Positions 661-5,709 of a stretch of DNA of 5,709 bases are shown one piece after another. Position 1 is the first letter of the stretch, and each line of letters begins with the position of its first letter. A program made the translations under genes and the position numbers. The notes beneath the pieces are model-generated. The model was not told where the DNA came from and ran no database searches. It saw only the letters and a list, made by a program, of their open reading frames with translations. The DNA comes from an uncultured Pseudomonadota bacterium (GTDB taxonomy: Bacteria > Myxococcota_A > Polyangia > HGW-17), in contig CALKWH010000122.1 of NCBI GenBank assembly GCA_938004375.1, forward strand, positions 1-5,709. Reading direction: 5' to 3'.

Positions 661-2424
661 TCAGATCTCCCGGAGCCGGGCGAGCCCGGAGAAGCCGCGG
701 TAGCGGGAGAGCTCGTCCTCGCAGCGGGCGGTGAGCGCGGCCGGATCCCGGGAGAGCGCGGCTTCCCAGCCGAGCTTGGTGACCAGCTCCGCGACGCGGA
801 CCGCCCGTTCATGGGAGAGCGGCGCCGCGGGATCGTCCGAGAGCGTGAGCAGGATCAACTTCACCGCCGCGTGGCGCTCCTTGATGCGCCAGGGCGAGGT
901 CAAATCGTCGTGGGGGGCCACCGCGCGCTCGAAGTCCTCGCGGGCGCGCTCCCGGAAATACGCGGCGTCGCGGGCCTCGCCCGCCGCGGCCAGCGCCTGG
1001 GCGTGGCGCAGCACCAGCGTTGGGCGGTCCACCACCGTGCCCTCGACGACGAGGTTGGTGGCGTAGCCGCCCATGACCGACGAGAAGACGACCAGGTAGG
1101 TCAGGGGCACGCCCAGCACGTGGCGCCAGCGCGGCGGCGTCTTCACCGGCGGGGCCGGCTGCCCGGCCGCGCGGGCGGCCTTGCGGGCGGCGGTGGCGCG
1201 GTCCATGGCCACGCGCTCGAGGTGGAGCAGCACGCCCACGCCCACGAACATCACGCCATTTTCGACGAACATGCTCCAGTATGGGGCGATGGCGTTGTTC
1301 ATGAAATAATGCTTCACCGCCCAGTGCAGCACGGTGGAGCCCACGATGAACACGCCGAACGCGCCGATCCACAGGCGCAGGATCGGGTGGGAGCGGCGCC
1401 CGAGCACCAGCGGGTAGAAGAAGAGATCCACGAGCAGGTCCCGGAAATGGACGTTCCAGCGGCGCCACCACTCGAGCACCGAGTGGGAGACAAGCGGCGA
1501 GCGGAAGGCCAGCGTCACCGGCGCGCCCATGCGGTTGTACAGCCCGGTGAGGATGTACGACGACGAGAGCGCCCAGAATACCGGCTCCATGGGGTAAACC
1601 CACGGGATGATCAGCCACTTCTGGCCGGTGACCGCGGCCGCCCACAGGATGGCCGGCTCCAGCGCGTGATAGGACAGCGCGAACAGCACGCCCGCGACCA
1701 GGTAGCGCGTGCCCTGGGCGGTGAGCACGGGATCCGGCGGCGCGTCGAGGCGCAGGTGCTCCCGGCGCGGGAGCGCGAACATGTACGGCACCAGGATCAC
1801 CGCCGGAAGCGTAAAGAAATATGTGAACACCTCGGCCACGGTCACCGGGGGGGCGCCGTCGCGCAGGGCCTGGTGGTGGAACCACAGCAGGCGCAGCGGC
1901 AGGAAGAACGCGAAGATCAGGCCCGCGGGGCCCCACACCGGCGAGAACACCACCGCCGGGAACCAGCAGAAGTGGTAGAGCGCCATCACCGCCAGGTGGA
2001 GCGCGAACAGGGTCGCCCACTTCGCCCACTTGGGCGCGCCGGAGCGCATCACCAGCGCGTAGGGCACAAGCACGGCCACCGCCAACGCGGTCGCCGCAGG
2101 CAGCAGAATCGCCGAGAGCGCCAGCGAGCCCCAGAGCCAGAGCCGGGCGCGGGCTGCCGGCCACGCCTCCTGGGCGAGCGTGAGGGCGAAGAATCCCGTG
2201 AGCAGCACACCCACGCCCCAGGGGGAGTGGAACTTCGGCGTCCAGCAGGTCAGGTGCACGTGCCCGGTCGCGTACAGCGCCCCGATGACCGCGAGCAGGA
2301 ACGCGAGGCTCGCCCGGGCGAGGCCGGGGCGAAGGACCCGCGGGCGCGCGTCGTCCACCGTGAGCTCGGGATCCCACCAGAACCGCAGGATCGAGCGCCC
2401 AACTGTCAATGGAATTCGGAACAT
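661..2424 (-). CDS. Membrane-bound O-acyltransferase (MBOAT)-like polytopic protein with soluble C-terminal tail
   Basis: 587 residues with roughly 11 hydrophobic segments (about 37-54, 70-86, 96-125, 135-160, 168-183, 198-218, 240-265, 272-295, 350-368, 385-403, 435-460), so an inner-membrane protein. The MBOAT signature is recognisable: WWRRWNVHFRDLLVD at 319-333, comparable to FWRRWHIS of AlgI/DltB-type enzymes, and a later membrane-embedded histidine in TVLHWAVKH (H367), matching the invariant catalytic His. The first active-site position is Asn324, as in several eukaryotic MBOATs, rather than the bacterial His. MBOAT enzymes move acyl groups from a donor onto a hydroxyl or amine; the substrate here cannot be told, and no SGNH/AlgJ-type partner is in view. 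After about residue 465 the chain is soluble, helical and Ala/Arg/Glu-rich, possibly TPR-like. The start lies 3 bases after the phoH stop with no clear Shine-Dalgarno, so translational coupling is likely. The family call rests on motifs alone. Confidence 0.75.
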   Translation of the reverse strand: MFRIPLTVGRSILRFWWDPELTVDDARPRVLRPGLARASLAFLLAVIGALYATGHVHLTCWTPKFHSPWGVGVLLTGFFALTLAQEAWPAARARLWLWGSLALSAILLPAATALAVAVLVPYALVMRSGAPKWAKWATLFALHLAVMALYHFCWFPAVVFSPVWGPAGLIFAFFLPLRLLWFHHQALRDGAPPVTVAEVFTYFFTLPAVILVPYMFALPRREHLRLDAPPDPVLTAQGTRYLVAGVLFALSYHALEPAILWAAAVTGQKWLIIPWVYPMEPVFWALSSSYILTGLYNRMGAPVTLAFRSPLVSHSVLEWWRRWNVHFRDLLVDLFFYPLVLGRRSHPILRLWIGAFGVFIVGSTVLHWAVKHYFMNNAIAPYWSMFVENGVMFVGVGVLLHLERVAMDRATAARKAARAAGQPAPPVKTPPRWRHVLGVPLTYLVVFSSVMGGYATNLVVEGTVVDRPTLVLRHAQALAAAGEARDAAYFRERAREDFERAVAPHDDLTSPWRIKERHAAVKLILLTLSDDPAAPLSHERAVRVAELVTKLGWEAALSRDPAALTARCEDELSRYRGFSGLARLREI

Positions 2425-3849: not shown

Positions 3850-4527
3850 TCACAGGGCGGGTTCGGTGCAGGTCAGGTCGGAGCCGCCGGCGGGGTCACG
3901 GAAGGCCAGCACGGTCACGGTGCCGCCCTGTCCGAAGACCACCTCGAGTTTGGCGTAGGAGCCGTCGGAGAGGTGCAGGATGTAGATGTTCCCGTTGCAG
4001 GTCCAACCCGTGCCGCAGGAGCCGCCGTCGAGCCAGGAGTTGCCGATCACGTAGGTGCCAGCGCCGTCGGCCTCGTAGGTGACATCCGAGGGCGCGGTCG
4101 TGACGGCGTAGAAGTCGGCTTCGTTGCCGGCGTTGTAGGCCGTGGTGTCCGGGCACAGCAGGATGCGGGGGCCGTTGAGCTCGTCGTCGACGAAGCCGAA
4201 GTCGCAGGAGGCGAGATCGCCGCCGGCGGTCTTGTCCCGCAGGTTCATTTTCTGGGTGCCGGGGTCGTGGAGGCTGATGGTCAACTCGAAGGACTCGCGG
4301 GTGAGGTTGTTCGTATTGTTCGTGTTGTTGACGTTGTTGACGTTGTTGACGTTATTCACGTTGTTGACGTTGTTGACGTTGTTGACGTTGTTCACGTTGT
4401 TGACGTTGTTGACGTTATTCACGTTGTTGACGTTGTTCGCGTTGTTGCCGGAACTGTCGTCGTCGCAAGCGACGGCGAAAAGGGACAGGGCGAGGATCAG
4501 ACCGAAAGTGAAGAGCTTGGATTGCAT
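3850..4527 (-). CDS. Lipoprotein with an Asn-Asn-X repeat linker and a Cys-containing beta-rich domain
   Basis: 225 residues, function unknown. The chosen start (ATG at 4527) has GGAGG 9 bases upstream and opens directly into a signal peptide; a longer in-frame ORF from 4653 would only translate the upstream 9-bp repeat and is rejected. Residues 1-20 form a type II signal peptide with a relaxed lipobox (AVAC) and acceptor Cys21, followed by DDDSSG. Asp at +2 is an inner-membrane retention signal in E. coli; its meaning here is unknown. Residues 28-75 are 16 Asn-Asn-X triads (one Ala, twelve Val, two Thr, one Leu), presumably a flexible tether. Residues 76-225 form a beta-rich domain with five cysteines (108, 125, 171, 177, 220), including the closely spaced pair SCGTGWTC. 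The stretch YILHLSDGSYAKLEV faintly recalls HmuY-like domains, too weak for a call. It is divergent from the deformylase gene, and no strong terminator separates it from phoH. Confidence 0.85.
   Translation of the reverse strand: MQSKLFTFGLILALSLFAVACDDDSSGNNANNVNNVNNVNNVNNVNNVNNVNNVNNVNNVNNVNNVNNTNNTNNLTRESFELTISLHDPGTQKMNLRDKTAGGDLASCDFGFVDDELNGPRILLCPDTTAYNAGNEADFYAVTTAPSDVTYEADGAGTYVIGNSWLDGGSCGTGWTCNGNIYILHLSDGSYAKLEVVFGQGGTVTVLAFRDPAGGSDLTCTEPAL
4303..4446 (-). repeat. In-frame 9-bp tandem repeat coding for Asn-Asn-X
   Basis: Sixteen consecutive 9-bp units (144 bp), coding-strand consensus AAC AAC GTC. Almost every Asn codon is AAC; three AAT exceptions occur, and three of the twelve Val codons are GTG rather than GTC. 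Two of the AAT variants are each paired with a neighbouring GTG, and this composite recurs about 63 bp apart inside similar flanks, suggesting duplication of multi-unit blocks by slippage or unequal recombination. Unit loss or gain keeps the frame and only changes tether length. Confidence 0.97.
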
Positions 4528-4595
4528 GGAAAAGGACCTCCGTTGCGGAAAAAGTTGATTCGCGCGGAGGGTGAAATGCCGCATTTTTGGCGGAA

Positions 4596-4601
4596 AGTCA
4601 A
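4596..4601 (-). promoter_or_regulatory. Weak candidate -35 box of the lipoprotein gene
   Basis: TTGACT on the minus strand (4601-4596) matches 5 of 6 bases of the -35 consensus and lies about 70 bases before the lipoprotein start, directly beside the intergenic 9-bp array. No good -10 box follows at 16-18 bases (best candidates CATTTC or GCATTT), so this is tentative. Confidence 0.25.
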
Positions 4602-4646
4602 GTCTGACGTGTCTGACGTGTCTGACGTGTCTGACCAGTCTGACCC
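4602..4646. repeat. Intergenic 9-bp tandem array (five units)
   Basis: Five head-to-tail 9-bp units on the plus strand: GTCTGACGT three times, then GTCTGACCA and GTCTGACCC. The array lies between the divergent starts of the lipoprotein and deformylase genes, ending about 20 bases before the deformylase's putative -10 and touching the candidate -35 of the lipoprotein gene. It could be a minisatellite or a set of direct-repeat protein-binding sites; the sequence alone does not decide. It can be read open in-frame with the downstream gene, but it lies outside the supported coding region. Confidence 0.9.
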
Positions 4647-4666
4647 TTCCCACGACCCCGATTCCG

Positions 4667-4672
4667 TACTAT
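4667..4672 (+). promoter_or_regulatory. Weak candidate -10 box of the deformylase gene
   Basis: TACTAT matches 4 of 6 bases of the -10 consensus and sits in an AT-rich patch that is rare here. It would give a short leader of about 17 nt that still includes the ribosome binding site. No convincing -35 box is seen 16-18 bases upstream; the last unit of the 9-bp array lies in that area. Confidence 0.3.
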
Positions 4673-4683
4673 ATCTGCACGCC

Positions 4684-4688
4684 GGAGG
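4684..4688 (+). promoter_or_regulatory. Ribosome binding site fixing the deformylase start
   Basis: GGAGG, 7 bases before the ATG at 4696. It matters because it selects the start that includes the signal peptide; no comparable site precedes internal alternatives such as the TTG at residue 31 or the ATG at residue 77. Confidence 0.85.
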
Positions 4689-4695
4689 TTTTCCC

Positions 4696-5367
4696 ATGCG
4701 TTGTGCGTCGTTGCTTGTGTCCCTGTTCCTGTTCGTGTCCTGTGCCTCGTCGAGCCGCGCCACGCTGCCGGCGGCCGAGCGGAAGTTGATCGACTCCCCG
4801 GGGCCGCTGCTCGAGATCGTCACCTGGGATCCGGCCAAGAACGAAGGACACCCGGTGCTGCGGCAACGGGCGCGCCCGGCGGGCGGGCTGGCGCGCGGGG
4901 ACCTCGAGAAGCTCGACCGGCTCATGCGAGCCACCCTGGAGAAGTCCGGCGGCGTGGGCCTGGCCGCGCCCCAGGTGGGGCTGCCCCTGCGCGTCGTGCT
5001 GGTGCAGCTGCAGGACCCCGCGAAGACCGTGATCACCTGCGTCGATCCGGTGATCGAGGTGCGCTCCGAGGCCGTCGTGGACGGCTACGAGGGCTGCCTG
5101 AGCATCCCCGGCCTGGGCGGCAAGGTCCGGCGTCACGAGGCCATCCAGGTGCGCTGCCTGTCCCTCGAGGGTCGCGTGAAGATCTACGAGTCCAGCGGCT
5201 TCGAGGCCCGGATTTTCCAGCACGAGCTCGACCACCTCGACGGCGTCCTGTACGCCGACAAGCTCGAAGGCGCCCTCATGCCCATCGAGGAGATGCGCCG
5301 CCGTCGGGCCGCCGAAGCCGGCGGGGCCGCCGAGGCCGGTCCGTCGAACGAAGCCGGGAAGAAATAA
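4696..5367 (+). CDS. Peptide deformylase with a lipoprotein-type signal peptide (predicted exported)
   Basis: 223 residues. The peptide deformylase family removes the N-formyl group from the initiator methionine of new proteins, using Fe2+ or Zn2+. All three family motifs are intact: GVGLAAPQVG (86-95), EGCLSIPG (132-139, metal ligand C134) and QHELDH (175-180, ligands H176 and H180, catalytic E177). Normal deformylases are about 165-190 residues and begin almost at the LRxxARP region; here a roughly 35-residue extension precedes it. That extension starts MRCASLLVSLFLFVSCASSS, a short basic n-region, a hydrophobic core and a near-lipobox (FVSC, Cys16; Phe at -3 is unusual). About six residues (DPAKNE, 45-50) also appear inserted before GHPVLR. 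The tail is Ala/Glu-rich and ends in KK. No fmt gene adjoins it, so it is probably an accessory paralogue of the housekeeping def; I leave the symbol blank. The family call is very safe, export is likely, lipidation less certain. Confidence 0.93.
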   Translation: MRCASLLVSLFLFVSCASSSRATLPAAERKLIDSPGPLLEIVTWDPAKNEGHPVLRQRARPAGGLARGDLEKLDRLMRATLEKSGGVGLAAPQVGLPLRVVLVQLQDPAKTVITCVDPVIEVRSEAVVDGYEGCLSIPGLGGKVRRHEAIQVRCLSLEGRVKIYESSGFEARIFQHELDHLDGVLYADKLEGALMPIEEMRRRRAAEAGGAAEAGPSNEAGKK

Positions 5368-5391
5368 AACAGAAGAAAGCAGTCACGTTCC

Positions 5392-5406
5392 GGCAACTTC
5401 GTTGCC
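5392..5406. terminator. Hairpin downstream of the deformylase gene
   Basis: Perfect 6-bp stem GGCAAC/GTTGCC with a TTC loop, 25 bases after the deformylase stop. There is no T-run after it on the plus strand, so it is at best an atypical terminator or a transcript-end stabiliser. Confidence 0.35.
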
Positions 5407-5423
5407 TCAAATGGCGGGCTGAC

Positions 5424-5461
5424 GCCCGGTCCGGGCTGTCCGGCGCGTGCGTTGACGCGCC
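5424..5461. terminator. Two GC-rich inverted repeats in the convergent spacer
   Basis: A GCCCGG-T-CCGGGC palindrome (5424-5436) is followed by a perfect 7-bp stem GGCGCGT/ACGCGCC with a 6-nt loop (5442-5448 with 5455-5461). They lie between the converging ends of the deformylase gene and the gene at 5490, where a bidirectional terminator is expected. Neither has a T-tract on either strand. Confidence 0.4.
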
Positions 5462-5489
5462 TCCGTGCCGACGCCATGGGGGGGGACTG

Positions 5490-5662
5490 TCACTTCCGGA
5501 TCAGGCGGAAGTGGTGGGTCACCGGGATCGCCGGTAGAAGCGGCATCTTGCGCGTGGTGTAGCCGTCGGTCCAGTTGTTGATGACCAGCGGGTTCCCGGC
5601 TCCGTCGCGCTCCTCGGAGACGACGCCCACATGGTCGGGGCCGGCCTTGGGCAGCGTGTCCA
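5490..5662 (-). CDS. C-terminal fragment of a DUF1287-like protein, 5' end lost at the contig end
   Basis: About 56 codons end at a TGA (5492-5490). Readable features are LPKAGPDHVGVVSEE, then NPLVINNW, GYTT and a terminal VTHHFRLIRK. The order PxHxGIV, then a (V)I(H/N)N motif, then a final xHxFR/HYR strand, resembles the C-terminal half of DUF1287 proteins, an uncharacterised bacterial family often exported and thought to be related to NlpC/P60-type cysteine peptidases. The His of PDHVG would be the conserved His of that fold. The N-terminal half, with any signal peptide and catalytic Cys, lies beyond the contig end. The frame stays open into the adapter, so any automatic call extending past 5662 would carry false residues. 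It is convergent with the deformylase gene. The family call is from motif memory only and moderately sure. Confidence 0.6.
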
Positions 5663-5709
5663 AGATCGGAAGAGCGTCGTGTAGGGAAAGAGTGTAGATC
5701 TCGGTGGTC
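5663..5709. other. Illumina TruSeq adapter sequence (non-biological)
   Basis: From AGATCGGAAGAGC at 5663 to the last base, all 47 bases match the reverse complement of the Illumina universal adapter as I know it, including GTCGTGTAGGGAAAGAG and GTAGATCTCGGTGGTC. This is read-through adapter left in the assembly, not genomic DNA. Confidence 0.98.

Follow-up and report, generated by a model that had tools for sequence, protein, structure and literature searches.

We propose that the 223-residue peptide deformylase encoded on the 5,709-nucleotide contig CALKWH010000122.1 of an uncultured Pseudomonadota bacterium (Myxococcota_A; Polyangia in GTDB; this whole stretch is the window of the analysis) is held in the cell envelope by a lipid anchor and would probably act there by taking the formyl group off the formyl-Met ends of proteins and peptides that have passed the inner membrane before the cytoplasmic enzyme acted. 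We put the probability of this reading at roughly 0.55. The usual teaching is that deformylation takes place cotranslationally in the cytoplasm, and an enzyme of this kind would extend it to a compartment beyond the ribosome.

By family cut-offs, three motifs and modelled fold, the window protein qualifies as a peptide deformylase. PF01327 covers residues 51-191 (E 4.9e-40 in a Pfam search), and TIGR00079 (109.8 bits against a cut-off of 103.95) and NF001159 (142.7 against 125) are both passed. The AlphaFold2 model (pLDDT 93.2, entire model) has the deformylase fold when compared with the Protein Data Bank (PDB). The catalytic motifs GVGLAAPQ, EGCLS and QHELDH are all intact, as an earlier note on this DNA had said, the residues flanking HELDH are ordinary, and the three motif patterns (GxGxAAxQ, EGCLS, HExxDH) occur together in 119 of the 121 proteins P0001-P0121 from the homologue search. 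An active metal site and hydrolysis of formyl-Met peptides would be expected of such a sequence.

The earlier note had gone further and suggested a different substrate, such as secreted formyl peptides or another amide, or moonlighting. For the window protein there is so far no support for a changed reaction, because motifs, sequence and fold match those of an ordinary deformylase. The idea that the exported branch hydrolyzes some other formamide or amide instead of formyl-Met draws on its relatives: five Flavobacteriia-like ones carry EGDLS, with Asp replacing the metal-binding Cys, several Bacteroidota members carry DGCLS, and haem genes adjoin four EGDLS-type loci (L210, L211, L212, L247), with HemS and ChaN identified by Pfam beside the deformylase at L210, the sole locus run. 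Set against the normal motifs, fold and HELDH surroundings of the window protein, we consider this improbable. The EGDLS-type exported relatives (L176-L180 and the four loci next to haem genes) have a signal without a lipobox.

The deformylase begins MRCASLLVSLFLFVSC-ASSS, and the start that had been placed at an ATG behind GGAGG holds (Table 1). By a ribosome-site rule of our own, no site precedes the downstream in-frame TTG/GTG starts that lie 80, 78, 72 and 55 codons ahead of motif 1, and a GTG 32 codons ahead of it has AGGA only. An alternative upstream ATG at about 4576 likewise has GGAGG, at spacing 5; the frame from there would cross a 9-base repeat at 4602-4644, and the listed starts of L001, the sole relative compared, include no ATG at that place. 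A scan of 4500-5600 returned zero promoter-like sites and one weak terminator-like site, about the count obtained in shuffles. From the ATG at 4696 onward, the protein has the positive n-region, hydrophobic stretch and lipobox Cys of a bacterial lipoprotein. With a single Arg and no twin-arginine motif, it does not qualify for twin-arginine translocation (Tat), and its signal and lipobox separate it from the housekeeping cytoplasmic Def, which has no export signal. Lipidation of Cys16 and processing by signal peptidase II are predicted, and the Ala at +2 would, by the E. coli rule for this position, sort the protein to the outer membrane.

Table 1. Features of the exported peptide deformylase gene in the window.
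Feature	Position	Strand	Basis
Exported peptide deformylase gene, 223 residues	4696..5367, including stop codon	+	Open reading frame; PF01327, TIGR00079 and NF001159
Ribosome-binding site GGAGG	4684..4688	+	7 nt 5' of ATG 4696; sequence, scored by start-site rule
Predicted signal peptide, residues 1-15	4696..4740	+	Rule-based call; low-confidence region of AlphaFold2 model
Lipobox FVSC; Cys16 (4741-4743) predicted lipidated residue, +2 Ala	4732..4743	+	Conservation of the Cys column
Deformylase domain as modelled, residues 36-204	4801..5307	+	AlphaFold2 model; range aligned with PDB
Motif 1 GVGLAAPQ, residues 86-93	4951..4974	+	Sequence, intact
Motif 2 EGCLS, residues 132-136; Cys134 expected metal ligand	5089..5103	+	Sequence, intact
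Motif 3 QHELDH, residues 175-180; two His ligands and catalytic Glu177 expected	5218..5235	+	Sequence, intact

Signals were called with a strict signal-plus-lipobox rule and a looser variant, both written by us, and protein searches were read down to the 120 top-scoring of several thousand matches. A stronger test of the signal than such calls is how well the lipobox Cys is conserved. In A1, 39 rows that we chose from protein matches, 38 rows have C in the Cys column and the other, P0023, has S there, with a Cys three columns further on; mean identity is 25% before the Cys and 44% after it. In A2, 35 rows made up of 33 from a search with L039 (Prolixibacteraceae) and two others, the column holds C in all 35, with identity of 19% before and 51% after. 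Among P0001-P0060, the 60 best proteins of the homologue search with the query included, the looser rule found signal and lipobox Cys in 54, none in four, one late annotated start and one fragment, which bears out the expectation that homologues would share an N-terminal signal. Three of the four signal-less proteins (P0021, P0028, P0045) show by eye a twin-arginine motif and a later Cys behind over-long annotated starts, the Cys of P0028 and P0021 lying far from the annotated start. The strict rule called 47 signals in the same 60 proteins, 35 twin-arginine-like and 12 not, and no called relative has Asp at +2 (0/47). The best 120 of several thousand matches in the L039 search comprise 111 with lipobox Cys, six without, two short and one without the core, from sources whose names include Prolixibacteraceae, Rikenellaceae and Alistipes.

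Exported deformylases also group together. Tree 1, built from 136 deformylases sampled from the sequences collected by then, contains a 55-row clade (SH-aLRT 99), of which 50 rows were called or judged exported; the other five are L127, L129 and L130, with lipoprotein signals by eye, and P0010 and P0121, with short annotated starts. Outside this clade the strict rule called one of 81 rows (L134), and of the 140 distinct deformylase frames found in fetched loci it picked out 12. Tree 2 holds 101 hand-picked rows. Its 66 exported, lipoprotein or secreted rows (by rule or eye), which come from two unclassified genomes as well as from Myxococcota and Bacteroidota, all fall to one side of a branch with support of 98.4; opposite them are the cytoplasmic rows (25) and those of a second lineage (10). 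The second lineage was found with L134 and also contains L151, uncalled by the strict rule, and P0242-P0361. L134 and L151 are lipoproteins by eye, the records include some named Myxococcaceae and Archangium, and the lineage stands apart from the branch of the window protein. Its best 120 proteins of several thousand include 86 with lipobox Cys, 31 that start 60 residues or less from motif 1, two uncalled and one without the core. In many of its members the annotated start is an internal Met immediately ahead of the enzyme domain, and it is possible that one gene gives two forms there. The prediction of lipoprotein export is thus supported at the sequence level, since the lipobox Cys is conserved, Sec-type and twin-arginine signals are mixed within one clade, and a second lipoprotein lineage exists.

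The late starts lend something to a different explanation, in which the true product, or a second one, begins 3' of the hydrophobic stretch and is a cytoplasmic deformylase. The late annotated starts of P0010 and P0121, the 31 short proteins of the second lineage and three genomes with the exported copy alone would fit it. However, the signal ATG in the window has a good ribosome site, which the later starts lack, an untranslated lipobox Cys would not stay conserved, and the absent cytoplasmic copies coincide with a syntenic neighbour that is missing or cut; we regard a downstream start as very improbable. The earlier note had named homologues starting downstream of the hydrophobic stretch as grounds for giving up the lipoprotein prediction, and such starts turn up in the single rows P0010 and P0121, next to the odd P0003, and not in the family as a whole.

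As for second copies, each of the eight genomes with a strong A1 match has two or three deformylase matches, and reading of G002, G210, G124, G193 and G103, and also of G004, showed a signal-less second copy; G130, G247 and G263 fall outside this reading. In the order of G001, the genome closest to the window, the exported copy occurs in eight of 13 genomes, five of which also have a signal-less copy (L260 was judged by eye; L256 and L262 were left out of the reading). Fmt scored over its cut-off in three of four genomes, and methionine aminopeptidase type I in 13 of 14. The second, cytoplasmic def accompanied by fmt that the earlier note proposed looking for was seen in several relatives.

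Several observations weigh against an envelope deformylase. The branch is patchy, with an A1 match above 165 bits in eight of 283 genomes of the phylum of G002 (Myxococcota by its record; G002 is itself in A1). The late or short annotated starts of P0010 and P0121 belong here too, as does P0003, 89% identical, whose unrelated N-terminus lacks a signal and which lies on a 1,990-base contig. The signal is retained as a type and not as a sequence, because 10 non-synonymous and two synonymous changes fall in the 16 signal codons between the window and L001; by sequence, it is export that has been retained, rather than a particular signal. No exported methionine aminopeptidase was seen when 14 genomes were searched and N-termini inspected, with frame picking too poor for this to carry weight. 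A conserved operon partner was considered and rejected, as the widest recurrence among 311 clustered neighbours is synteny of close relatives, mainly the haem genes described above; the deformylase gene was called in 45 of the 51 fetched loci (missed in L154, L155, L159, L163, L164 and L221), and our simple gene caller performs poorly on GC-rich loci, leaving Myxococcota contexts thin. Finally, in G001, G003 and G784 only the exported copy was found and no other deformylase. The Nudix gene that usually neighbours the signal-less gene has no match in G001 or G003 either, and in G784 a contig start truncates it, so the missing second copies are likely assembly gaps; true loss of the cytoplasmic deformylase in these three genomes is not supported.

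In the Bacteroidota the picture is similarly uneven. A match to A2 at 1e-45 was found in seven of 296 genomes of the phylum of L039, five of the seven being the EGDLS form, and at 1e-38 its order gave matches in 30 of 198 genomes. From the search of that order 26 loci were read and three more proved unreadable; 16 of the 26 were called by the strict rule, and those left uncalled include lipobox-less secreted forms and longer proteins. In some Bacteroidota relatives the deformylase domain forms the C-terminal part of a longer secreted protein, which could suit an outward-facing lipoprotein that deformylates foreign bacterial peptides and thereby opens them to peptidases as a food source. Myxococcota and Bacteroidota are known to be rich in secreted hydrolases, and the +2 residues are compatible with outer-membrane sorting, but no peptidase or transporter gene recurs alongside among the clustered neighbours, and we think such scavenging unlikely. 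Two exported proteins (L234:7482-8627 and L239:7094-8245) have tandem double deformylase domains, the first domain of L239 looking degenerate.

Compared with known systems, the window protein differs from the cytoplasmic Def defined by PF01327, TIGR00079 and NF001159 in its lipoprotein-type signal and separate branch, and its relatives often have a signal-less copy too. The best PDB match of the Bacteroidota profile A2 (147 bits) is the Leptospira interrogans deformylase (1szz, 1sv2), whose solved chain of 177 residues aligns from residue 12, with no room for a signal seen there. The organelle enzymes PDF1A and PDF1B (1zxz, 3cpm) are likewise deformylases targeted elsewhere by an N-terminal extension; their destination is a translating organelle, whereas the predicted site of the window enzyme has no ribosomes. 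Among the PDB matches listed (60 of 80), none stood out as the structure of an exported deformylase. Full-text searches of open-licence literature turned up no paper on a lipoprotein, Tat or secreted deformylase, a scope that leaves most subscription papers and all preprints outside. The enzyme family is known; its lipid-anchored extracytoplasmic branch was not found described in those searches, within which the statement that no lipoprotein deformylase class has been described stands.

Elsewhere in the window, a lipoprotein-like gene diverges from the deformylase gene (3850-4527, minus strand; no Pfam match) and carries an Asn-Asn-Val repeat directly after its signal, arising from a 9-base DNA repeat at 4324-4447 (13.8 copies). 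Between the two divergent genes lies the tandem 9-base repeat GTCTGACGT (4602-4644, 4.8 copies). A 587-residue membrane protein at 661-2424 (minus strand) resembles MBOAT proteins by eye and has no Pfam match above cut-off, and a fragment at 5490-5663 (minus strand) resembles the end of DUF1287 (E 5.1e-05, just below the Pfam cut-off) and is cut by adapter. The contig end, 5663-5709, is adapter, which we take to be Illumina sequence and of which 33 bases (5663-5695) match exactly; any open frames at that end, TTEIYTLSLHDALPI for one, belong to the adapter and not to the genome.

Since lipoprotein maturation takes place at the periplasmic side of the inner membrane, the enzyme is expected to face the periplasm or to lie further out. 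Once its lipobox Cys had been lipidated after processing by signal peptidase II, it would be anchored in the envelope, and Tat-type relatives would cross folded, with the metal already bound. There it would encounter formyl ends retained behind the block imposed by the signal recognition particle (SRP): in E. coli, SRP blocks deformylation of nascent signal peptides in vitro (PMC5454389). That paper also proposes that N-out membrane proteins retain the formyl group, mentions formylated signal peptides, and states that the bacterial role of the formyl retained on membrane or periplasmic proteins is not known (PMC5454389). From this E. coli work, the most likely substrates would be N-out membrane proteins and released signal peptides.

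It is possible, though we hold it more tentatively than envelope anchoring of the window enzyme, that Myxococcota and Bacteroidota have a further deformylation step outside the cytoplasm. The exported branch (Sec and Tat lipoproteins and secreted forms) and the second lipoprotein lineage would then complete formyl removal from the proteins and signal peptides that had escaped the cytoplasmic enzyme through SRP. If true, deformylation would no longer be purely cytoplasmic and ribosome-coupled, and a conserved exported deformylase would make the role of formyl groups retained in the envelope testable. Animal immune cells sense formyl-peptides, and with members named Alistipes and Rikenellaceae, the branch may bear on the amount of formyl-peptides that gut bacteria shed.
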